The notes under the pieces were generated by a model, which was not told where the DNA came from, did not search any database, and saw nothing but the letters and a program-made list of their open reading frames with translations. 22,133 bases of DNA, from positions 1 to 22,133 of the IMG/VR virus record IMGVR_UViG_3300046525_000001. The stretch is one strand, 5' to 3'. The position numbers and the translations under genes were made by a program. Below, one piece after another: positions 755 through 21,241 of this stretch. The DNA is from a virus. How positions within the stretch are numbered: the first letter of the stretch is position 1; each line of letters opens with the position of its first letter.

Positions 755-1108
755 TCAGATCCGGGGGCCTGAGACCAGGTGGTTGTCCAGGCGCTCAGAC
801 ACAGCCAGGCGCTCGACGCGCTCTTGGCGAAGGTCAGCTCGAAGGCCACCGATCTCGGAGCCGTGCTGACGAAGGACGTCCAGTACCTCGCGGACGTCGT
901 CATGAAGCCGATCCATGTCATCGCGCAGGTTCGTGCTGTGGCTGTTCGCGACCTGGTCGCGGGCTTCCTGCGTGTTGTCCCTGACCTCTGTCAGGGCCTT
1001 GTGCTGACGTCGCATGAACTCGACGCAGACACCGATGAGGGTCACAAGGATCGTGCCTCCGGTAGATACGAGAGCCACCTGAACGGTGGGCTCCATTGCG
1101 TTGGTCAT
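755..1108 (-). CDS. One-TM coiled-coil membrane protein, DUF2746-like, lysis-cassette (holin candidate)
   Basis: A 117-residue protein with one hydrophobic segment near residues 9-31 (VQVALVSTGGTILVTLIGVC) followed by a positively charged turn (FMRRQHK) and a long charged helix with heptad-like spacing (about 37-110), predicted coiled coil. This resembles the DUF2746 proteins of actinobacteriophages, which lie beside endolysin genes. Its ATG overlaps the stop of the fibre gene by four bases (ATGA), so translation is probably coupled. A second in-frame ATG at codon 5 could serve as an alternative start. Position next to the endolysin supports a membrane role in lysis, but a single TM with a long soluble helix is not a classical holin, and a membrane anchor or lysis regulator is equally possible. 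No spanin genes are expected for a Gram-positive host. Confidence 0.7.
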   Translation of the reverse strand: MTNAMEPTVQVALVSTGGTILVTLIGVCVEFMRRQHKALTEVRDNTQEARDQVANSHSTNLRDDMDRLHDDVREVLDVLRQHGSEIGGLRADLRQERVERLAVSERLDNHLVSGPRI

Positions 1109-2367
1109 GAGGCCAGGGCCTCGACCAGCTTCTCCAGCTTCTCGATGCGAGCCTGCTGGTCCTTCACGACGGCGAGCAGAGCCACACCGAGCAGGTCGTA
1201 GCGGACGGAGTCGATCTCGCCATCCATGTAGGAGACGATCTCGGGAAGGGTCTCGGCGACCTCCTCTGCGATCAGGCCGTACTCGTCCTTGCGGCCCTCG
1301 ACCAGCTCACCCTCGTCGTTCTCGGTGGCCTTGCGGTCGTAGATCACAGGACGCAGGGCGAGGATGTCCTTGGGGTTGATCTCGTAGCTGCGGACGTTCT
1401 CCTTGAACCGGATCGAGGAGGTGTTCCGGCAGAAGTTGTGGTTGCCGTCGACCCACACCGCGTACCAGGTGGAGCCCGAAGGCGTGTAGCTGTGCGGTCG
1501 GTCCGAGCCGTTGGCCCGGTAGATGACATCGCCATACGACAGGTAGCTGTGCGTGTGGGAGCTCGGCGTGAACGTGCTCGGCTTCGACGTGATGCTGTTC
1601 CAGTCGTGCGCGTGCGTCGAGGGCGGGAAGGTCGCAGGCTCGCCCGTAATGTCGGCCCACGCGGTGGTGTGCGGAGCCGGGGTGAACGTGGTCGGCTTGC
1701 CGGTGACCTCGGACCAGGTCGGGGCTGTGTGCGTGTGCGCGCTCGGGGGGAACGTCGCAGGCTTGCCCTGAATCGTCGTCCAGTCGACGGTCGGTGCCAG
1801 GTCCATCCAGGCACTGCCGTTCCAGAACTCCCACTTGCCAGTGTCGGAGTTGAGCCCGAGGCGACCGACGCGAGGAGTGGTCGGGCGAAGCAGCGTGCTC
1901 CAGGAGCCGATCCGGCTGCCAACGAAGCGGCGCTGGTCGGTGACGCTGCCAGCCGAGATCGAGGTGACGTTCGCACCCACCGAGACGTTCGCCAGGCAGA
2001 TCTCGTAGATGCCGGTGTCAGTCTGGGTCAGGGCTGGAGTGCCGCCGCCAGCCGAGCCCTTGATGACGGCCAGGACGATGCTGTTCGCAGTCGGGTCGAG
2101 TCGAAGGACGATGCGGTCCATGCGAGCCGCCGTGTCGGCAGCCGCGATCGTCAGGTTCTCGACCGCCGTCGAGGAGTAGGCGTGACCGCGAATGACCGCC
2201 AGGCCCGGCTGCACCGTGAGGATCATGCTGGTGCCAGCGGAGGCGACTCGCAGGTCAGGGGCGGACGAGGACGATGCGACGCCCGTGTCCTGAAGCTCCC
2301 TGAAGAAGGCGCTGTACTGGGACTCGGTGACGCTCTGGGCGTCGAAGGGGTAAGAGCTCTGGGCCAC
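1105..2367 (-). CDS. Tail fibre/receptor-binding protein with C-terminal S74 intramolecular chaperone domain
   Basis: 420 residues. The N-terminal part (about 1-150) looks like a tail-attachment domain of the kind that begins YPFDAQSVTESQYSAFFREL. Residues 175-190 form a WEFWNGSAWMDL-type module. Residues 196-273 hold four repeats of about 19-22 residues with pattern W..I.(G/S)(K/E)P.TF.P, most ending in HTH or HAH; such HxH motifs bind metal along trimeric fibre shafts in other phages. From about 316 to the end is a Peptidase_S74/endosialidase-type chaperone: TSSIRFKENV, then ILALRPVIYDRK, DEYGLIAEEV and a terminal coiled coil. Ser317 and Lys322 match the spacing expected of the self-cleavage dyad. 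GTG start with GGAAGGA upstream. The protein is probably a trimeric fibre whose tail end is removed after folding. The host receptor cannot be inferred. Confidence 0.88.
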   Translation of the reverse strand: MAQSSYPFDAQSVTESQYSAFFRELQDTGVASSSSAPDLRVASAGTSMILTVQPGLAVIRGHAYSSTAVENLTIAAADTAARMDRIVLRLDPTANSIVLAVIKGSAGGGTPALTQTDTGIYEICLANVSVGANVTSISAGSVTDQRRFVGSRIGSWSTLLRPTTPRVGRLGLNSDTGKWEFWNGSAWMDLAPTVDWTTIQGKPATFPPSAHTHTAPTWSEVTGKPTTFTPAPHTTAWADITGEPATFPPSTHAHDWNSITSKPSTFTPSSHTHSYLSYGDVIYRANGSDRPHSYTPSGSTWYAVWVDGNHNFCRNTSSIRFKENVRSYEINPKDILALRPVIYDRKATENDEGELVEGRKDEYGLIAEEVAETLPEIVSYMDGEIDSVRYDLLGVALLAVVKDQQARIEKLEKLVEALAS

Positions 2368-2441: not shown

Positions 2442-2819
2442 TTACAGGACGTAGGTTGCTGAGAAGCGGACCGTGTCATTCGCCGCCAGGTTGTACGTGT
2501 TGGTCGTTCGGATCGTGACGTCTCCGTCCGGAGTGATGTCGCACTCTCCATCCGCGTAGCCCGTGGAGTAGAGAGCGGTCATCGTGTTCCGGGGGCGGTA
2601 GCCATCCGGGATGTTGCAGCACACGGTGTCCGCCAGGTTGTACGGGGCGGACGATCCGGTATTCAGCGCCGTGACCACCTTGATGTCGGCCTTGACCGTA
2701 GCCACTCCGTTGATCTTCGTTGCGAAGAAGTTGTTCACGGAGAAGCCTGTCGTGGCCACACATCCAGAGGTGGTCGTCACTGGGGCTGCGACAGGTGGGG
2801 GGTAGAGGGCTGCGCCCAT
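2442..2819 (-). CDS. Small tail-tip protein with N-terminal MGAALYPPP motif
   Basis: 125 residues, beginning MGAALYPPP and followed by an alternating hydrophobic/polar sequence with many Thr, Asn and Val residues, typical of a beta-sandwich virion protein. I do not recognise a family. The first nine residues nearly match those of the preceding gene (MGAGLYPPP), whereas the remainder does not obviously align. ATG start with GAAGGA eight bases upstream; longer in-frame extensions lack such a site. It lies between a related small protein and the S74 fibre, so it is probably a tail-tip or fibre-associated component. Function unknown. Confidence 0.75.
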   Translation of the reverse strand: MGAALYPPPVAAPVTTTSGCVATTGFSVNNFFATKINGVATVKADIKVVTALNTGSSAPYNLADTVCCNIPDGYRPRNTMTALYSTGYADGECDITPDGDVTIRTTNTYNLAANDTVRFSATYVL

Positions 2820-2862
2820 GTGCGGGGTCCTTCGGTTGCGCTGAACTTCAGTAGGGATGGGG

Positions 2863-3366
2863 TCAGAAGGCCGGGCCGATGTCCTCAACGATGAGGTGGC
2901 TCAGGCCGGTGGGACCGGTGATGTATCGGACGCTGCCGTAGGTTGCCGCAGCGCGCATCGCCCTGGTGCAGATGGCAGCCGACACCGGGCCTGCGGGCGG
3001 GTCGCTGAGTACCCACTCCGCGAAGACGCCGTTGCCAGTCAGCGAGTCGTCGTCGTAGACGGTGGTCTGCGTGTAGCCCAGGCTTGTGCTGGTTACCGTC
3101 GCGGTGCCGGAGCCGGTGGCCCATCGGCACGACGTCATGGCTGCCTGCTTGGCGTAGCGGTAGGTCGTCTGATCGCCGACGCCGTCAGCGTCAACGATGG
3201 CCGCCATGAACCTGATCATGTAGGCGCGACCGGCCTCGGCAGTCCAAGTGATGGCGTATGCCCTCGTCTCGGTGTCGCCGACGTAGCCACTGGTTACCAG
3301 CGGAACGAAGGCGACGATGCCCTTGGCCGCGACGCCCTTGGGTGGTGGGTAGAGTCCTGCTCCCAC
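2863..3366 (-). CDS. Small tail-tip protein with N-terminal MGAGLYPPP motif
   Basis: 167 residues, beginning MGAGLYPPP; the rest is rich in Tyr, Thr, Ala and Val (for example YAITWTAEAGRAYMIRFMA), suggesting a beta-rich structural domain. The start is GTG at 3366 with GGGAG six bases upstream, just after the stop of the collagen-repeat gene. The frame stays open to 3948, but that extension overlaps the preceding gene and reads as low-complexity out-of-frame sequence, so the short start is preferred. Neighbours place it among minor tail proteins downstream of the hub. The recurring AGRAY..RF segment resembles domains seen in actinophage minor tail proteins. No precise role can be given. Confidence 0.78.
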   Translation of the reverse strand: MGAGLYPPPKGVAAKGIVAFVPLVTSGYVGDTETRAYAITWTAEAGRAYMIRFMAAIVDADGVGDQTTYRYAKQAAMTSCRWATGSGTATVTSTSLGYTQTTVYDDDSLTGNGVFAEWVLSDPPAGPVSAAICTRAMRAAATYGSVRYITGPTGLSHLIVEDIGPAF

Positions 3367-3392
3367 AGGGAACTCCCTTCTGTCACAAGGGG

Positions 3393-5315
3393 TTACGCCA
3401 GCGCAGCCCAGAAGCGGTTCGCTCCGTTCTCGATGGCGCTGGTCGTGATGGATGCCGGGGACGCGGTCAGCGAGGTGGCGCTGAGCATGCCGAACCGCTT
3501 GACCGGAGTGAGGCCGAAGGCGTTGGGCGGTGAGCCCGCAGCGTTCTCGTAGGCCAGGCACATCGGACCGTCGCCGGTCGTCGTGTTGTAGATGAACCGC
3601 CAGGCGATGTAGTACGTCCCGGCAGCCAGCGTGGTCGTCGCGGTCAGCGGGGCGAAGGAAGCACCACCACCCGCAGCGTGCTGCTCGGCAGGCTCGTACG
3701 CCACCGTTGACAGGTCGCCGCTCGTCGCCACGCGAGTGCCCGAGCTGTTGTAGATCGCAGCCCAGGAGCCGGTCTGGAGACCGCCCGCGTACCCGAGGAA
3801 GTGCCAGACAATCTTCGAGATCGACTGGCTCTGCCGAAGCGTGACCGCCGTGATGCGGACGGCGGTCGTGCCCGTGTAGATGCCAGTCGACTGGCAGTTG
3901 GCAGGGTCTGAGGACCACGCCTTCAGGCCCAGGTCTTCCGGCAGCCACTCGTCAGCTCGCGGCTGGAGCTCCCAGTTCATCGCGCCACCAGGCGAGGCAC
4001 CCGTACCGCGCTGGGCGTAGACCCTGCCGGACTTGGCGTAGACCTGAGCGCCGAGCGATGTGGTTGACGGGTCTGCCGCCAGGTTCTTCAGGCCGACCGC
4101 GCCTTCAACGCTGACGCGGGAGCCGTTCATCAGGTCGCTGGTGCCCAGTCCCACGTAGCCGTTGGCACGCTTGACGTAGACGGCGTAGCCGTTGTCCACC
4201 TCGGCGTCCGTGTAGCGGACCAGGTAGAAGTTCGAGCCCTCGTCCGCGCCCGTCTCGGAAGCCTCAGAAACGCCCATCACCCAGCGTCGCTTGTTCAGCT
4301 TGCGGAAGCCCATCACGCCGACATCCGTGTCGCTGATGGAGTTGATGATCAGCGAGGTGTTGATGACACTGCCGCCAGCGGTGGACGGTGCACCCACATC
4401 GGACGCACCCAGCGCGACTGCACCCGTCATGCCGTTGACCGAGGTGATCGCATCGTTGGCCACGGTCACGATCGCGCCGTCCGACTGGCGCACCTTCAGC
4501 TTGCCAGCCTCGGAGTAGACGATCGCGCCGTCAGTGATGCTCGAAGTCGGGACCGTCGCCGCGTTCTGCATGACCAGGTTGCCCATGCCACCGCCAGCCG
4601 CAGAGGCTGAGCCTCCGATGCGGACGTTCTTGTCCATGTAGACGTTGCCCTGCTGGAAGCGCACAGAGCCGGTGCTGCGCACCTCGAAGGAGTTGGCTGC
4701 GTTGTCGGCAGACTTGACCTCGAAGGGGTTCGAGGAGGAGCCGGAAGGCAGCGTGAGGATCATGGGCACCGTGGCCGTGCCAGCCGGACCCACCGGACCC
4801 TGCGGTCCAGTCGGTCCAGTCGGACCAGCCGGGCCAGTCGCGCCGGTCGTGCCCTGAATGCCCTGCGGTCCCTGCGGGCCTGTGGCTCCAGTCGCTCCGG
4901 TCGGCCCCTTGATGTTGCCGATCGCGGTACCCCAACCGGAAGCGCTGCGCTGCCAGATGTCGCCCGTGTCGGTGCGGAGGAGCATGTCGCCAGGCTTGGT
5001 GTCAGTGCTCGACGTCGCCGCGTTGTTCAGGTACCACTTCGCGCCGCCGACAGCCGAGGTGCCGACCTGGGTCCATACACCCGAGATCTTCTTGTAGATG
5101 GTCAGGTTGGTACTGGTCACACCGAGGAAGGTGCGGCTGTCGTCGTAGACGTAGAAGTCCCCGTCAACACCCTGCCCCGAGGTTGGGGCCGTGGTGCCAG
5201 ACAGCCACTGACTGCCGTTCGTTCCGTTCGTTCCGTTGGTGCCGGGCAGGCCCTGCGGTCCAGGGGCTCCCGTGAAGCCAGAGACCTCGGCGCTGGGGAT
5301 CACATTGAAGCCCAT
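3393..5315 (-). CDS. Minor tail protein with two collagen-like Gly-X-Y stretches
   Basis: 640 residues. Residues 16-34 are a short Gly-X-Y run (GAPGPQGLPGTNG...), residues about 35-130 a globular module, and residues 137-179 a second collagen-like run of 14 triplets rich in GPTG, GATG and GPQG. After this come fibre-like segments and a C-terminal beta-rich domain (about 450-640; for example SISKIVWHF, SWAAIYNSSG, LAAGTYYIAWRF) resembling carbohydrate-binding-type jelly rolls of actinophage tail proteins. Collagen runs imply a trimeric shaft. Its ATG overlaps the previous stop by one base (TGATG). Probably a tail-tip fibre that contacts the cell surface. The Gly-X-Y blocks are coded by near-identical DNA triplet repeats, so length variation between relatives is likely. 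Confidence 0.88.
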   Translation of the reverse strand: MGFNVIPSAEVSGFTGAPGPQGLPGTNGTNGTNGSQWLSGTTAPTSGQGVDGDFYVYDDSRTFLGVTSTNLTIYKKISGVWTQVGTSAVGGAKWYLNNAATSSTDTKPGDMLLRTDTGDIWQRSASGWGTAIGNIKGPTGATGATGPQGPQGIQGTTGATGPAGPTGPTGPQGPVGPAGTATVPMILTLPSGSSSNPFEVKSADNAANSFEVRSTGSVRFQQGNVYMDKNVRIGGSASAAGGGMGNLVMQNAATVPTSSITDGAIVYSEAGKLKVRQSDGAIVTVANDAITSVNGMTGAVALGASDVGAPSTAGGSVINTSLIINSISDTDVGVMGFRKLNKRRWVMGVSEASETGADEGSNFYLVRYTDAEVDNGYAVYVKRANGYVGLGTSDLMNGSRVSVEGAVGLKNLAADPSTTSLGAQVYAKSGRVYAQRGTGASPGGAMNWELQPRADEWLPEDLGLKAWSSDPANCQSTGIYTGTTAVRITAVTLRQSQSISKIVWHFLGYAGGLQTGSWAAIYNSSGTRVATSGDLSTVAYEPAEQHAAGGGASFAPLTATTTLAAGTYYIAWRFIYNTTTGDGPMCLAYENAAGSPPNAFGLTPVKRFGMLSATSLTASPASITTSAIENGANRFWAALA

Positions 5316-5623
5316 CAGACAGTCACCTCCACTCCACAGATGTGCACGGCAAGACCAGTCGAGCTGCCCTGCACCTCAATGACCTGACCGGCGATGTCCA
5401 TCACCTGTGCCATGTCGAGGGTGAAGATGCCGTTCGCCGGGACCGGCGTGTTGGGGATGACCGTGAAGGTGCCCATCTTGATCAGGATGCTGGCCGGGGT
5501 GGTGTTGCTGTTGGCCACCAGGATGTTCGTGACGATGGCGTTCGTGTTCGCAGCCACCGTGTAGACGGCGGTCAGCGTCGTGGAGGCCGCGCCTCGGAAA
5601 AGCTTCTTGGGCGTATTCGCCAC
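5315..5623 (-). CDS. Small beta-rich tail protein
   Basis: 102 residues beginning MANTPKKLFRGAA, then alternating hydrophobic strands (ALYTVAAN-like opening, IVTNILVANSN, ASILIKMG, IFTLDMAQVM, GLAVHICGVEV). No family name can be given with confidence; the composition suggests a compact beta-sandwich. GTG start at 5623 in the context ACCAGTGGC, three bases after the upstream stop, and one-base overlap with the collagen-repeat gene downstream. Position between the hub and the fibre suggests an adaptor, or a protein that decorates or trimerises at the tail tip. Its overall strand pattern resembles the 93-residue protein after the portal gene. Confidence 0.75.
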   Translation of the reverse strand: MANTPKKLFRGAASTTLTAVYTVAANTNAIVTNILVANSNTTPASILIKMGTFTVIPNTPVPANGIFTLDMAQVMDIAGQVIEVQGSSTGLAVHICGVEVTV

Positions 5624-5626
5624 TGG

Positions 5627-6841
5627 TTACCACACCCCCATGATTCGCATGATCTGATCGTCTGAGCTCGCCCCGCCACCGGAGCTGTTGCGCTCCAGTT
5701 GGGACACTCGACTCTCGGTGGACTGAACTCGCTTGGCGTATGCCGCCTCGGCGTTGAAGCCGGTGGCGTCCCCGAGGAGAGCGCCGATCTTGAAGCCATC
5801 GGACGTCGCCTTCAGCACCATGCCGGTGACGGTGGCCACCAGCTCCTGCGTGTCCACGACGACGCTCACGACGTCGCCCATGTTCCAGTCGACGCCGAAC
5901 TGCATGGCGCTGTCCTCCATTGGAACCGCCTGCACCGCAACGGCTGTGAAGCCCTTCTCGGCAAGCGTCTCCAGTCCGGAGTTGTCCAGCTCCTGGTCGT
6001 CGTTCGTGTTGCGCTGGTCCTGGAAGACCTCGATGCGTCGACCCCAGTCCGCCTCTGCGGCAAGGGATTCAGCGGTCGTAATGTCCTTGAACGTTCGGTC
6101 GACCAGCTCGCCCTGTCCAGCCACGATGACGTGCGTCGCGCTCGGAGGAGTGATGGCCACACGCTGACCGGAGAGCGTGTTGTTCATGACGTCGAGCCGG
6201 ATGTAGCTCGCGCGGTTGGTGACCTGCCCAGTCTCGAAGACCAGGTTCGAGCCGCGCTGCACGATGCGGAAGGTCAGTCCATCCACGACGGCGATCTCGG
6301 TGAGCAGGTTGCCCAGCACCGGGAAGCGCGCCGACTTCTTGACGACCGAACCGCGAGCCAGGTTGGTGCCCATGATGAGCCCAGCCTTGCGTCGAGCTGC
6401 CGGTGCAGACGGGCCGACGTTGACGTTGACGTAGGAGTGCATGACCGTCTCGGCTGCGCCCGAGCGGACGTCGTGCGAGAGGGTCTGCGTGGTCGGGTTG
6501 ACGTTGCTTGGCTGAGGGAAGGCCAGGTAGTCCGACAGGATGCAGGTGTCGGAGATCCCCTCGAATACCACCGAGCCGCCTGGGTCTTCGGGAGTGGCGG
6601 CGAACTCATGCTTGCTGGTCGGTCCCGACATCAGGACGTCGGTGGGGCCGGTGATGATGACGCCGGAACCTGGAGTCCGCAGCGCAGTGACGAGCGGGTG
6701 CTCGGCTTGCAGTGTGAGCTTCCAGGTTCCGACGTTGTTGAACTGGTCTTCCAGTTCCAGCACCAGCTCCTCGGGACGGATGGCACCAATGCGGTTGAGT
6801 GCCTTGTCCCGGACCTCGACCGTGAGGTCACGGAGCTTCAT
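5627..6841 (-). CDS. Tail hub/baseplate protein, Siphovirus ReqiPepy6 Gp37-like
   Basis: 404 residues. The N terminus (MKLRDLTVEVRDKALNRIG) and the middle regions (GTWKLTLQAEHPL, VVFEGISDTCIL, GRRIEVFQDQRNTND, FGVDWNMGDVVSVVV) match what I know of the Gp37-like family, which in Gram-positive siphoviruses follows the Dit gene and forms the tail hub below the tail tube. The C terminus carries a short coiled coil (VQSTESRVSQLERN) followed by a Gly/Ser-rich stretch, a likely attachment point for downstream fibres. ATG start, three bases after the Dit stop. No peptidoglycan-cutting domain is visible. The family call is by recognition of sequence style and position, not by search. Confidence 0.8.
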   Translation of the reverse strand: MKLRDLTVEVRDKALNRIGAIRPEELVLELEDQFNNVGTWKLTLQAEHPLVTALRTPGSGVIITGPTDVLMSGPTSKHEFAATPEDPGGSVVFEGISDTCILSDYLAFPQPSNVNPTTQTLSHDVRSGAAETVMHSYVNVNVGPSAPAARRKAGLIMGTNLARGSVVKKSARFPVLGNLLTEIAVVDGLTFRIVQRGSNLVFETGQVTNRASYIRLDVMNNTLSGQRVAITPPSATHVIVAGQGELVDRTFKDITTAESLAAEADWGRRIEVFQDQRNTNDDQELDNSGLETLAEKGFTAVAVQAVPMEDSAMQFGVDWNMGDVVSVVVDTQELVATVTGMVLKATSDGFKIGALLGDATGFNAEAAYAKRVQSTESRVSQLERNSSGGGASSDDQIMRIMGVW

Positions 6842-6844
6842 GGA

Positions 6845-7699
6845 TCAGATCACCATCCACTTCCGGGGCTTCCAGGAGACCGTGATCCGCGAGGCGGTGG
6901 TCACGTTCATGAAGCTCGCATCGCAGGTCGACGTGCCGGGCTCGATGGCCCAGAACCGGGGAGCCGTGTTCAGGAGGGAGTAGCGGTTCGCGCCGGTCCC
7001 GTCCTTGACAGTGCCCAGCCGGGTGTCCACGACCAGCGTCTCGCCAGCCGCGAGCGTGCCCTTCCACCACAGCGTCTCGCCCGTAGGGGAGACCGCCTTG
7101 AAGTTGTCACCCGGACCGAAGACGGTCCAGACGGGGTAGGCCGGAGCGTCGCCCGTGTTCTCCAGCGTGATCTGGCCAATCGCCTGCGAGGAGGCCACTG
7201 GCATGGACATGAAGTTGGAGACGAACGGGGTGACCGCATTGCCGCCGACCTGCGCTGTGGTGGAGACCGAGGACGTCCAGTACGGGTCGCCCGCGCGAAG
7301 CGTGATCACCGTCTGGACGTCCTTCAGGCCGGTCGTATCCGAGCCGTAGGTGTACTCGCCTCCCCCGATGCGGACCACTTCCGTCGACCAGTCCGTGCCG
7401 TCGTCCTCAATGAGGCGCAGCGTGCACGGACCGGCCAGCATCTTGGCCAGCCGGGAGAGGATCTGCTTCAGGTGGACGCGGTCGCGTCCGACGATGTCAA
7501 GCGGGACGTCGATGTCCCGCGCGGTGACGCGGGTGCGGCGATACACAGCACCGTCACCCGCGCCTTCGAGCCACTGGACCGAGACAGGGGGCAGGCCCAG
7601 ACCAGTCACGCCGGTCGTCGCCTGCACCCCCGTCCCATCATCCTGAACCCCACTGAGGCTCAGCTTGTCCAGGGCGTTCTCCAGAAGGAGCTTCGCCAT
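6845..7699 (-). CDS. Distal tail protein (Dit-like, siphovirus tail component)
   Basis: 284 residues. Features of the Dit/siphovirus tail component family include the N-terminal beta-rich ring domain (LPPVSVQWLEGAGDGAVYR..., DIDVPLDIVGRDRVHL, LSRLAKMLAGPCTLRLIEDDG) and the mid-protein AGDPYWTSS segment that links to a C-terminal galectin-like beta domain (ITLENTGDAPAYPVWTVFGPG, LVVDTRLG). Dit forms the hexameric ring joining the tail tube to the hub. The ATG immediately abuts the TAA of the tape-measure gene (TAAATG), giving tight coupling. Position between tape measure and Gp37-like hub is the standard one. Confidence 0.88.
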   Translation of the reverse strand: MAKLLLENALDKLSLSGVQDDGTGVQATTGVTGLGLPPVSVQWLEGAGDGAVYRRTRVTARDIDVPLDIVGRDRVHLKQILSRLAKMLAGPCTLRLIEDDGTDWSTEVVRIGGGEYTYGSDTTGLKDVQTVITLRAGDPYWTSSVSTTAQVGGNAVTPFVSNFMSMPVASSQAIGQITLENTGDAPAYPVWTVFGPGDNFKAVSPTGETLWWKGTLAAGETLVVDTRLGTVKDGTGANRYSLLNTAPRFWAIEPGTSTCDASFMNVTTASRITVSWKPRKWMVI

Positions 7700-16953: not shown

Positions 16954-17946
16954 TTACGCCTCCTGGACGCTCGTTGTGGATCGCCGCGCCTCCTGGGCAG
17001 CGGCTTGCTGTTCCGTGCGGATGAATCGCCGCCAGGCAGAGATCGCGGCCTTGCCGCTCAATCCCTTGGTCACCTGGGGCCACAGCTCCTCGTACTTGCG
17101 GTTCAGCGCGTAGAGGGGGGAGCTGCTGTACTGCGCGTCGGAGAACACGGGCTCCGCGTAGCAGTGGCAGTTGTCGTGGTACTTGTCTCCGTCGCCGTAC
17201 TCGGCGCTGTTCTTGGAGCGGTAGACAGGTCCACGCGAGATCAACATGGCGCACCACCCACAAGGGGTTCCGGTGCGCGAGAGTCGGATGTAGCCGAGTG
17301 CGCGCTTGTCGCGGTTGGCGTGGTTCCAGACAGCGGAACGTGCGCCGTTCATCGCGATGCGCTCAGCGGCTGCGGCTTGACGGGCACCGGCCTGGGCATG
17401 AGCCTCGTCGCGGAGCCTGTCCACGTCCTTGGCCGGTGCCTCGGGGTCGATCTCCCGCAGCTTCCGTTCGAGGTTCTTGGTGCCGAGGGCTTCGAGAGCT
17501 GCACGCAACTCCAGTAGCGCCTCGCGTTCGAGCCGATCCTCATCGGCCTTCAACCCGTCCAGCTTCTCGACCAGGACGCGGTCGCCCTCAGTGGGCTTGT
17601 CTGCGTCCGTCTCGCGGGGCTGGGCGGGTTGTGAAGCGGGGTCGGTCTCCGTGGTAGGGGTCGACTCTGTTCGGCCCTCCTGGGGCTTCTCAGCGTCTCC
17701 GGTCAGGGAGGCGAACTCGCGTCGCAGGGTGTCGAGCGTGATGTACGTCGGCTCGGGGTGGTACGGGTCGGCGACCGTGGAGCCAGTGCGTAGTGCCCGC
17801 GCCAGGCGGTAGTACGCACGGGCCAGGTCGCGGCTCATGCGCCGCCTGGTCATGACCATCGTGATGGCCTTGGTCAGCCAGGCGGTTGAGGTGGACGCCC
17901 TCGCCGTAACGGGGACGTCCGACCACAGCTTCAGTGCCTCCTCCAC
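16954..17946 (-). CDS. MuF-like minor head protein
   Basis: 330 residues from GTG at 17946. Residues about 1-55 are helical, 60-125 a Pro/Thr/Glu-rich linker, 126-200 a charged helical region, and 200-270 the conserved MuF-type core: C229-x2-C232 (TPCGWCAML), then H257-x2-C260-x-C262 (YHDNCHCYAEP), likely metal-binding. The family acts in head morphogenesis, bound to the portal. The coding frame continues upstream as LTTPAKSKEAEEASVAFHIA, so the true start may be CTG at 18030, five bases after GGAGGTG, adding 28 residues. The GTG choice has GGAG eight bases upstream. The Thr/Pro-rich linker in mid-protein is unusual relative to compact MuF proteins. Stop lies three bases before the scaffold start. 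Confidence 0.82.
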   Translation of the reverse strand: MEEALKLWSDVPVTARASTSTAWLTKAITMVMTRRRMSRDLARAYYRLARALRTGSTVADPYHPEPTYITLDTLRREFASLTGDAEKPQEGRTESTPTTETDPASQPAQPRETDADKPTEGDRVLVEKLDGLKADEDRLEREALLELRAALEALGTKNLERKLREIDPEAPAKDVDRLRDEAHAQAGARQAAAAERIAMNGARSAVWNHANRDKRALGYIRLSRTGTPCGWCAMLISRGPVYRSKNSAEYGDGDKYHDNCHCYAEPVFSDAQYSSSPLYALNRKYEELWPQVTKGLSGKAAISAWRRFIRTEQQAAAQEARRSTTSVQEA

Positions 17947-18049: not shown

Positions 18050-18397
18050 TCAGGCCAGAGGGTCGACCGTCTGCGCGATTGCGTTCCAACGCCCTCTTAC
18101 TGTCAATGGGACGAGCGAGCCGGTTTGTTGCATTCCCTTGACAGTCAATGCTTCTCGGACTCCGCCGTGCCATCGAGTGAGGCCGGTCGAGCCGACAACG
18201 TTGATGTTGACCGCCGCGAAGCTCGTCGGCTGGAGCGTGCGCTCGATGCCGACATTCAGGTTCGCGACGGCGAAGGCGTCCCGTAGGGGCTTCAGCTCGA
18301 CGCCGACGTTGAGGCTGACCGTGGTGAGGGTCGTGGCCCGAGAGGGCTCGTTGGCACCAACGTTCGCCACGATGTAGGCGAAGCCGTCACTGGCCAT
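18050..18397 (-). CDS. Small virion protein with NVG repeats
   Basis: 115 residues with tandem segments each containing NVG or NV: AYIVANVGANE, VSLNVGVE, ANLNVGIE and AVNINVVG, separated by about 18-21 residues, suggesting a repeated beta-strand structure similar to short ENVG repeats seen in actinophage structural proteins. The C-terminal third has a second pair (LTVKGM, LTVRGR) and codons rare in high-GC hosts (AGA, GTA, TTG). ATG at 18397, one base after the previous stop (TGACATGGC). Probably a head-surface or portal-associated structural protein; function unknown. Its frame overlaps a weak promoter-like sequence described separately. Confidence 0.78.
   Translation of the reverse strand: MASDGFAYIVANVGANEPSRATTLTTVSLNVGVELKPLRDAFAVANLNVGIERTLQPTSFAAVNINVVGSTGLTRWHGGVREALTVKGMQQTGSLVPLTVRGRWNAIAQTVDPLA
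18078..18106 (-). promoter_or_regulatory. Weak promoter-like sequence inside the NVG-repeat gene
   Basis: Minus-strand TTGACA at 18106-18101, 17 bases, then CGCAAT at 18083-18078. The -35 hexamer is perfect but the -10 is poor, and the stretch is coding, so chance occurrence is likely. Confidence 0.15.
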
Positions 18398-18398
18398 G

Positions 18399-19262
18399 TC
18401 AGGCCCAGCTCGTCGCCGCAGCCTTCAACCGCAGGGACCAGAGGCCCAGAGCAGCGGTCGTGCTGAGGTTGCGACGAACGTAGATGAGGGGGCTCATCGC
18501 GCCGGGCGCGAGGTTGCCGACGTTCACGGACGTCGAGTACGTGAGGCCGTCGAGCGAGACCTGGAACTGGCCGACCAGTGAAGGGGTTGCGTCGGTCAGC
18601 GTCTCGACCGAGACGATCACGCCCGAGGCCGTCTGTGTGCCCGAGAGGTTCTTGGTTCGGAACTGGACGACGGCCTGCGAGTTGCGGGGCGACTCGGCGA
18701 AGTCGAAGTAGTTCGGGGCCGGTCGCTGATCGAGGGTCGGGTGCCATACCTCCAGCCGGTTCGGGTTCGCGCCAGCGATCGGCTGCCCGTACAGGTGGAT
18801 GTTCTTCCAGGAGATCCCGAAAGAGTTGTTGTCGTAGTACCGGAACCGGATCGCCCGCTGCGCCTTCGCGGTCAGGCTCCTGATCTGGTTGCGGTACGCC
18901 GGTTTCGGGGCCGTGTTCATCAGGTCCGTCGTGGTACCGAGCGAGACCCACGTACCGTCGAGCACGTTCGTCGTATCAGTCGAGACCTCGAACGCCTGCG
19001 CGGTCACGAAGTTCGAGTTGCGCGTGACGCTGGTGAAGTATGCGTCGATGTCCCGAAGCTCGGGGAAGATCGCGCAGATCGTCATGGTGCCAGCGCCCGC
19101 TCCGGGCGAGGTGTACGCGACGTCGTCCGCCTCGTTGTTCAGTGACGTCACCTGTGCCGCCGTCAACTGGGTGAGGACGCCGCCTCGCTCATGGAACCAG
19201 GTGGTTCCGTCCTTGTCGTGCGCCATGCGGTACGAAGGCGCATCGGGGTAGTTACCTGCCAC
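18399..19262 (-). CDS. Beta-rich virion structural protein in the post-portal cassette
   Basis: 287 residues: MAGNYPDAPSYRMAHDKDGT..., then alternating strands (AGTMTICAIFPELRDIDAYFTSV, RAIRFRYYDNNSFGISWKNIHLYG) resembling discoidin/jelly-roll-type domains, and a C-terminal module with VQFRTKNLSGTQTASGVIVSVETL and SLDGLTYSTSVNVGNLAPGAMSPLIYV, a pattern found in phage fibre and structural proteins. Function not established. GTG start one base after the previous stop (TGACGTGGC). It sits with three small genes between portal and MuF, where head-associated decorations or fibres could be coded. A tail role cannot be excluded. Confidence 0.75.
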   Translation of the reverse strand: MAGNYPDAPSYRMAHDKDGTTWFHERGGVLTQLTAAQVTSLNNEADDVAYTSPGAGAGTMTICAIFPELRDIDAYFTSVTRNSNFVTAQAFEVSTDTTNVLDGTWVSLGTTTDLMNTAPKPAYRNQIRSLTAKAQRAIRFRYYDNNSFGISWKNIHLYGQPIAGANPNRLEVWHPTLDQRPAPNYFDFAESPRNSQAVVQFRTKNLSGTQTASGVIVSVETLTDATPSLVGQFQVSLDGLTYSTSVNVGNLAPGAMSPLIYVRRNLSTTAALGLWSLRLKAAATSWA

Positions 19263-19263
19263 G

Positions 19264-19482
19264 TCAGACCGTCCTCTCCAGAATCAGGGTTCCGTCCGGG
19301 GTGCCTGCGGGAACCGCAGCCCCGTTGTTGATGACGAGGAAGCCCGAGCCGGGACTGGTCCAGGTGGCCTCGCCGTCTCCCGCGCCGGACTTGGTCAGCA
19401 CTTGGCCGACCGCACCGCCCGCAGGGAGACTCGGACCAGAAGGACCACCACTGGAGGGGTGGGTGAAAGATGCTCGCGCCAC
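19264..19482 (-). CDS. Short fibre-like protein of the post-portal cassette
   Basis: 72 residues: a flexible Ser/Gly/Pro-rich N terminus, then GGAVGQVLTKSGAGDGEATW, a motif (GQVL.K....A.W) that recurs in phage tail- and head-fibre proteins just before a terminal domain, and GFLVINNGAAVPAGTPDGTLILERTV, a compact beta stretch. GTG start one base after the upstream stop (TGACGTGGC). Probably part of a virion fibre or decoration whose larger partner is the 287-residue neighbour. Too short for a confident family. Confidence 0.7.
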   Translation of the reverse strand: MARASFTHPSSGGPSGPSLPAGGAVGQVLTKSGAGDGEATWTSPGSGFLVINNGAAVPAGTPDGTLILERTV

Positions 19483-19483
19483 G

Positions 19484-19765
19484 TCACACCCCCATGTGGA
19501 GGACGGTGACAGACTGGGCCGAGCTGGCGACGCCGAACAGGATGTCGCCGAGAGTCAGGTCGAACGACGCCTCGCTCCCCGAAGGGAGCTCGTAGCCGAA
19601 GGACGAAGTGGTGACACCGGGACCGCCAAGGAAGACGGACCCGGTGCCCTTGTTCTGGACGACGACGGTGCGGGTTACCCCGTTGAAGCCGTGGTCGTCG
19701 CGGATGCTTGATGTCAGATCGGTAGACGTGGTGCCCACCGTGACGGATGCGTGCTTGACGGCCAC
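19484..19765 (-). CDS. Small beta-rich protein after the portal
   Basis: 93 residues: MAVKHASVTVGTTSTDLTSS..., then TVVVQNKGTGSVFLGGPGVT, LPSGSEASFDLTLGDILFGVAS and SVTVLHMGV. The strand-turn-strand layout with GSxASFDLxLGDxL suits a small beta-sandwich virion protein. GTG start in CCAGTGGCC with GGGAGG six bases upstream, 12 bases after the portal stop. It opens the four-gene cassette that ends at 18050. Possible decoration or head-fibre component; no family identified. It resembles in layout the 102-residue tail protein at 5315-5623. Confidence 0.75.
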   Translation of the reverse strand: MAVKHASVTVGTTSTDLTSSIRDDHGFNGVTRTVVVQNKGTGSVFLGGPGVTTSSFGYELPSGSEASFDLTLGDILFGVASSAQSVTVLHMGV

Positions 19766-19777
19766 TGGCCGCCTCCC

Positions 19778-21241
19778 TTACTCAGTAGCGAATGGGGGTT
19801 GCTCCGTGGGGGGTTGAACATCAGGGGTTGCGCGGGTGATCGAGGAGGCCAGTGCCAGTGCGGGGTCTTCGTCCTCGCGCAGCGACTCCCACTCCTCGAT
19901 CTCGTTCTGGGTGACACCGGGCACGCGCTTCCAGAGACCTCGGGCAGGAATGCCGAGCTGCTCCTTCAGCTTGCCGAGAGCGTCAGCGGCCTGAGCCAGC
20001 GAGCGGGACTCCATGTCGCGCCAGTTGACCTCGCCCGCAAGGTCCTCAGCGGACGTCGCGTCGCCTTCGAGCTCACCGGCAAGACGGAAGACCCGCTCCC
20101 AGCTCTCACCGAATGCAGCTCGGAACTCCGCGATCTTGCGCGACAGCGCAGTCTCGGCGGCGAGAAGCGCCTCAGCGGAGAGGTTCGCGATCTGGCCAAG
20201 CAGGTGATGGGGCGGCGTCTGCGACACGGCAGCCAGGTGGCGGATGCTCATGTCAATGGAGTCGATGAGGCCGTTCAGTGGACCGCCCGGCAGGGAGCCG
20301 AACTTGACATCCGAGTCCTCGGCGAACAGGAAGCGACGAGCGTTGTGGTTCATGGGGATCGGCTTCGGCTGACCGTTGTCATCCAGGACCGGATCGCCGT
20401 CTGCGTCCCGCTCGATGGGCGGGGCCATCCCGGTCGCGTACCGCACCTCGGAGGAGGTGAAGGTCTGCGCCACCAGGAGGTCGAAGACGGTCTGGTTGAT
20501 GCGGTTCTGGAGGGCGATCATCGGCTCGATCACGCCGAGCGTGCGGCCTTCGAGGTCGATCTGCGCAGCGAACCGGGTGACCGGGCACTCGCTCGCGCCG
20601 TGGCGCTTACCGGCACCGACCGTGACGGTCTTCGTGTCCTCCAAGGACTTGAAGCTCACGGGGTACTCGGCCCTGCCGTCCCACAGACGGGCCTTGCCAG
20701 GGACCTTGTCCTTCGGCATCGACACGACAGTGAGCGCCGCGTAGGGCGTGTCGTCGTTCGCCGGGTCCTCGAACAGGGCAGCGGTCTTCAGGGCCGACAG
20801 GCCCTTGGTGACCACGCCGCGCTTGGTCCGCTCGGTCAGCGTGAAGCTGTGACCGAAGGCCAGCGCGCCCCGGTAGACCGCAGCCTGCCGGGCGTCGAGC
20901 CGTGAACGCTGCCAGTGCTTCCACTCCACGGAGCTGGAGTCGGGCTGGGCATTCGTCAGGTCGTCGCCGAGCGAGCCGCGCCGGAAGCCGTCCACGTACA
21001 GCGCCTGAGCCGGTGTCCCGACCAGGAGCGGCATCCAGTTGGATACTGCCCGCTTGGCCAGGAGTCGGTACTCATCGTCTGCCTGGGGCGGCATGTAGGG
21101 GTCGTCGTGCTCGCCTTGCTGGTAGGCGTCGATGCGACGCAGCCGATCGCCGTCCCGATGGAGGATCGACAGGAGCTGCTTCGCCAGCGACGCTGGGGAG
21201 ATGTCCGTCACGGGCTCCCACCGTCCTTCCGTAGGTGTCAC
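19778..21241 (-). CDS. Portal protein (SPP1 gp6-like)
   Basis: 487 residues. The opening ...DISPASLAKQLLSILHRDGDRLRRIDAYQQGEHDDPYMPP and the block LLAKRAVSNWMPLLVGTPAQALYVDGFR are typical of the SPP1 Gp6-like portal family. Further along are the clip/stem-type segment LGVIEPMIALQNRINQTVFDLLV and a C-terminal crown segment with Glu/Asp-rich helices (EIEEWESLREDEDPALALAS). The dodecameric ring at one capsid vertex is the DNA entry channel and terminase docking site. The reported start is GTG at 21241, but GTG at 21211 (codon 11), giving MTDISPASL, has better matching to typical N termini and a GGAG nearby. The stop is 12 bases before the next gene. Confidence 0.93.
   Translation of the reverse strand: MTPTEGRWEPVTDISPASLAKQLLSILHRDGDRLRRIDAYQQGEHDDPYMPPQADDEYRLLAKRAVSNWMPLLVGTPAQALYVDGFRRGSLGDDLTNAQPDSSSVEWKHWQRSRLDARQAAVYRGALAFGHSFTLTERTKRGVVTKGLSALKTAALFEDPANDDTPYAALTVVSMPKDKVPGKARLWDGRAEYPVSFKSLEDTKTVTVGAGKRHGASECPVTRFAAQIDLEGRTLGVIEPMIALQNRINQTVFDLLVAQTFTSSEVRYATGMAPPIERDADGDPVLDDNGQPKPIPMNHNARRFLFAEDSDVKFGSLPGGPLNGLIDSIDMSIRHLAAVSQTPPHHLLGQIANLSAEALLAAETALSRKIAEFRAAFGESWERVFRLAGELEGDATSAEDLAGEVNWRDMESRSLAQAADALGKLKEQLGIPARGLWKRVPGVTQNEIEEWESLREDEDPALALASSITRATPDVQPPTEQPPFATE

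Follow-up and report, generated by a model that had tools for sequence, protein, structure and literature searches.

Two neighbouring tail genes in this DNA encode proteins that start with almost the same nine residues and then diverge, which raises the question of what so short a shared start is for. The window, by which we mean the whole stretch of 22,133 bases that was analysed, is an IMG/VR record that carries siphophage structural genes on the minus strand. The nearest relatives of its tail proteins are found in Streptomyces phages of Arquatrovirinae and, judged by these proteins, the source phage belongs to the R4-like group of Streptomyces siphophages (Arquatrovirinae; Camvirus, Likavirus and others). 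In transcription order, the tail-tip genes encode Dit, the hub, a 102-aa protein, a collagen-like fibre, the two proteins in question (genes A and B) and an S74 fibre (Table 1), and this gene order from Dit to S74 recurs in annotated relatives. Group-wide, one or two genes composed of a leader and a head are found after the collagen-like fibre gene and before the S74 fibre gene. Elsewhere in the window, four small genes at 18050-19765 (-) lie between a portal-like gene (21241..19778) and a gene at 17946..16954; in phiScoe10, five accessory genes are reported to separate the portal from the capsid protease, one of them tail-fibre-like (PMC10276819).

Table 1. Tail-tip genes of the window and the leaders of genes A and B.
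Feature	Position	Strand	Evidence
Tail fibre with C-terminal S74 chaperone, N-terminus MAQSSYPFD	1105..2367	-	Pfam and phrog; leader-profile comparison
Gene B, 125 aa, ATG start, phrog_9468	2442..2819	-	phrog E 3e-45, AlphaFold2, Foldseek
Leader of gene B, MGAALYPPP	2793..2819	-	sequence, motif scan, family alignment
Gene A, 167 aa, GTG start, DUF7298 (PF23972, phrog_4817)	2863..3366	-	Pfam E 1.3e-55, phrog, AlphaFold2, Foldseek
Leader of gene A, MGAGLYPPP	3340..3366	-	sequence, motif scan, family alignment
Collagen-like tail fibre, 640 aa, N-terminus MGFNVIPSAE	3393..5315	-	Pfam Collagen, phrog_4013, leader-profile comparison
102-aa protein (phrog_1276 N-terminal part), candidate docking partner by linkage only	5315..5623	-	phrog
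Baseplate hub (Sipho_Gp37)	5627..6841	-	Pfam E 1e-49
Dit (distal tail protein)	6845..7699	-	Pfam and phrog

The gene A protein opens MGAGLYPPPKGVAAKGIV and the gene B protein opens MGAALYPPPVAAPVTTT. A purine-rich sequence of the ribosome-binding type lies upstream of both A (GAAGGGAG) and B (GAAGGAC). Longer open reading frames, 3948..2863 and 2888..2442, were rejected as the genes, since this sequence type together with the family alignment favours starts at 3366 and 2819. The initial annotation had noticed the shared start and the divergence after it, and profile comparison confirms both: when the A family (16 sequences) was compared with the B family (25 sequences) by hhalign, columns 1-11 aligned and nothing else did. 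To that description we add that both genes lie on the minus strand, that A starts with GTG, and that at least two further head families carry the leader elsewhere.

A degenerate pattern of the motif has exactly two matches in the 22-kb record and none in a reversed control. An exact motif scan of IMG/VR returned 85 stretches, about 70 of which are tail genes of A's, B's or a third family that start at the motif, so the leader is not a product of chance. Applied to 85,000 bacterial and archaeal genomes, the scan returned 29 stretches, and the open reading frames at the motif there included none of these tail genes. The motif does not belong to this phage alone but recurs at protein starts across Arquatrovirinae phages. 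Other viral contigs contain a group with MGAFLYPPF, which was judged unrelated and excluded.

Behind the leader, A and B are predicted to carry different folded heads. Gene A scores 188 bits against the Pfam model of DUF7298, compared with a curated cut-off of 27. Its AlphaFold2 model is a beta-sandwich with a mean pLDDT of 89.4, and of 55 at residues 1-10, and its best solved matches in Foldseek are the phi812 spike knob, the Bc2L-C lectin, C1QL3 and 4-1BBL, at modest TM values of 0.45-0.54. The head is tentatively predicted to be a TNF/C1q-like jelly roll, and the predicted viral relatives of this fold include long minor tail proteins. The gene B model (pLDDT 90.7, with 64 at residues 1-10) matches TP901-1 ORF49 (E 3e-5, probability 1.00, TM 0.48-0.60, 13-17% identity), and its head is predicted to be a receptor-binding head of the TP901-1 BppL/p2 type. 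In both models, every block after residues 1-10 lies at pLDDT 77-97. We count this step up from 55-64 at residues 1-10, as well as the predicted TP901-1/p2 fold of gene B, as support for reading the leader as an anchor. Sequence searches against solved structures gave no match for A, B or the 102-aa protein.

Other phages carry the leader on other heads: a third family occurs in Sitrop (phrog_18853) and L222, and a fourth in Yosif, Lannister and VieEnRose. The head at the C-terminus of the collagen-like fibre in Sitrop and Kamino is matched by heads of the fourth family (E 2e-4 and 3e-4), and heads thus exist both fused to a shaft and mounted on a leader. A fibre-internal GVYPEP that resembled the leader was judged spurious. 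In Kamino, the annotation after gene B (L206:7536-8613) contains no full-length S74 fibre gene. B and the fourth family share some minor-tail-protein family matches and may be remotely related, and gene A's family stands apart from both. The leader is thus found with at least four head families, two of them possibly remotely related.

To follow the leader without selecting on it, loci were gathered by the hub protein rather than by the motif, and seven GenBank genomes were added; L063 and L234 (mis-called fibre) and L246 (no fibre) were left out. This hub-anchored set was used in place of alignments A1 and A2, in which leader conservation is inflated because the sequences were collected by motif. 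A fibre start of MGFxV[IV]P went with the slot leader MGAx[LIM]YP in 46 of 46 loci and MALTVYP went with MGLxIWP in 6 of 6. Classes II and III possibly arose only once each, so that the locus counts do not stand for independent events. No leader gene was present in any of the seven loci with the fibre start MPTTYYPYD, nor in five loci with other fibre starts. Where MPTTYYPYD loci were inspected, the slot gene was DUF7298-like; those of Pablito and Daudau (L202:7036-7506 and L203:7009-7515) are of this kind and lack the leader, so that the anchor may have been lost or replaced naturally in these phages. VieEnRose has its own leader variant, MGVx[IL]YP (in full the unusual MGVx[IL]YPPP), and there two consecutive small genes (L170:1273-1916) replace the single 102-aa protein.

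Across these loci, the sequence class of the leader is tied to the genome and not to the head. DUF7298 heads carry the MGA class in 22 cases and the MGL class in four, heads of the phrog_18853 (Sitrop) type carry MGA once and MGL twice, and the fourth family appears with three leader variants. Both genes of two-gene loci share one leader class in all but Yosif; Lannister, for example, places MGLMIWPPP and MGLNIWPPP ahead of two different heads in one genome. Two loci, L104 (62-559) and L089 (5557-5976), have MGAS[IL]YPPTKND in common and near-identical upstream DNA, and their bodies differ; a recombination or exchange boundary probably lies right after the leader.

Such a boundary just past the leader, together with the position of the leader at the start codon, could also be read as the mark of a role in expression or in the DNA itself, namely a conserved translation-start region, a ribosome-pausing signal (PPP is able to pause ribosomes) or a recombination site at the gene start. 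The codons speak against this. Over leader codons 2-9 in 23 within-genome two-gene comparisons, there were 95 synonymous differences, 49 identical codons and 40 residue changes, so that codons for the same residue differed in 95 of 144 cases, which argues against a conserved DNA site and against a recent duplication. Moreover, G, A and Y are conserved to the same degree as P, and class II preserves the pattern, as MGLxIWPPP/Q, and not the codons. By this measure selection is on the leader peptide rather than on the DNA, and we regard a role in expression or DNA as very improbable. Full-length paralogy is a different proposition: A and B are both small all-beta proteins encoded side by side, and DUF7298 is present twice in some loci, so the pair might be diverged paralogues in which the leader is the best-conserved piece, retained because it belongs to the fold of the protein itself or to its trimer cap. 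Paralogy over the full length was, however, undetected, with the A/B profile match limited to the first 11 residues and with different best solved-fold matches for the two models. The leader class also shifts with the genome jointly in different head families, and the leader is modelled at low confidence outside the folded head. Paralogy is in our judgement improbable.

Binding of the leader to a partner is the most economical explanation, and the question then becomes which protein it would bind. The hubs of L222 and Phettuccine are 94% identical, but their 102-aa proteins are 40% identical and their fibre and slot leader classes differ. Nearly the same hub thus goes with different leaders, which makes it unlikely that the hub sets the leader class and disfavours it as the partner. 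Of the docking peptide with swappable C-terminal domains put forward in the initial annotation, the swapping is well supported, by four head families and by a leader class that follows the genome, whereas the hub is not favoured as its partner. Linkage points to the 102-aa protein next to the hub as one candidate socket, possible though not probable; because the 102-aa, fibre and slot genes are contiguous, the L222/Phettuccine pattern shows linkage and not contact. Docking instead onto the collagen fibre, Dit or another tail protein has a chance that we place a little under even. The concordance of leader class with fibre N-terminal class is perfect, and the fibre gene sits between the 102-aa gene and the slots; since the fibre, 102-aa and slot genes are adjacent, their concordance could also be co-inheritance of one block. 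Against the fibre as partner, its N-terminus (MGFNVIPAPE in many relatives) is itself leader-like, suggesting that the fibre either shares the socket or competes for it. When profiles were compared in a register fixed at the start codon, that of the MG-type fibre starts was closer to the slot leaders than 99.8% of column permutations were, and for the fibre starts of the M[AP] type the likeness to the S74 start exceeded that of 99.98% of permutations. With short profiles and related sequences, this is no more than suggestive evidence that the fibre start is a degenerate version of the leader and that the S74 start resembles the MALTVYPYD type of fibre leader. It seems more likely that the collagen fibre uses the anchor too than that it is the receptor for it. 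Extended to all tail-tip fibres, this idea would give the collagen-like fibre, the one or two heads and the S74 fibre each a variant of a single plug, M-[GA]-x-x-hydrophobic-[Y/W/I]-P, for which the 102-aa protein would form the socket, with plug and socket inherited as matched classes. We hold this general scheme to be doubtful; if it were true, any head gaining the right plug could be displayed.

The reading that we prefer is that a short N-terminal anchor peptide is the plug by which receptor-binding heads can be exchanged in a common socket at the tail tip, and on the sequence evidence we consider it probable. The nine-residue leader would be the N-terminal anchor for small head proteins at a common tail-tip site, and each head, a beta-sandwich of the lectin or receptor-binding type, would be joined to it by a short variable linker. 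Attachment by the peptide alone would allow a single head or two, drawn from at least four families, to occupy the slots that separate the fibre gene from the S74 gene. Heads would be exchanged by recombination, while the anchor would stay matched to the socket of its genome. The heads presumably bind cell-surface receptors and are presumably trimers. Leaderless DUF7298 proteins of the Pablito/Daudau type count against the anchor, as they must attach in another way, if at all.

Short anchors of this kind have precedents. In K1E, K1-5, SP6 and several Klebsiella phage groups, conserved N-terminal peptides of 7 to 11 residues attach receptor-binding proteins to a shared adaptor (PMC6872550). As here, one short peptide is found on different receptor-binding proteins of one phage and the bodies are exchanged, and anchoring was proposed or shown in those phages (PMC6872550); in our phage, the same short N-terminal peptide is carried by otherwise different predicted receptor-binding proteins. 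The cargo differs, with large tailspikes on a T4gp10-like adaptor there and heads of 110-160 residues here; the heads here also come from several families, and the class of their leader goes with the genome. Seven tail-tip proteins scanned with Pfam gave no match to the T4gp10-like adaptor domain. TP901-1 BppL/p2 offers a second likeness, in the predicted head fold of gene B, the Gram-positive host of a siphophage, and the Dit-hub-fibre gene order. However, gene B has no room for the N-terminal shoulder of BppL: about 13 residues precede the first strand in its model, so that a nine-residue leader and a short linker take the place of the shoulder and neck of BppL/p2 heads.

In the phiScoe phages, three proteins of the same tail-tip region were assigned as receptor-binding by HHpred (PMC10276819). 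The string 'N-termin' does not occur in the main text of that report, and we found there no description of the leader, its classes or head swapping. In Camvirus, variable tail fibres were proposed to explain differences in host range (PMC10656467). We found no description of this leader in the open-access literature that was searched. DUF7298 (PF23972), phrog_9468 and phrog_18853 are the family models of A, B and Sitrop's head gene, and they begin at the leader and do not separate leader from head.

These observations offer a way to study from sequence how tail tips are assembled and re-armed in an abundant group of Streptomyces phages. The nine-residue leader flags putative receptor-binding heads that databases call hypothetical, and leader classes predict which tail-tip parts belong together. 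The principle of a short anchor peptide, known in enterobacterial and Klebsiella phages, would thereby extend to siphophages that infect Gram-positive hosts, where several unrelated heads use it.
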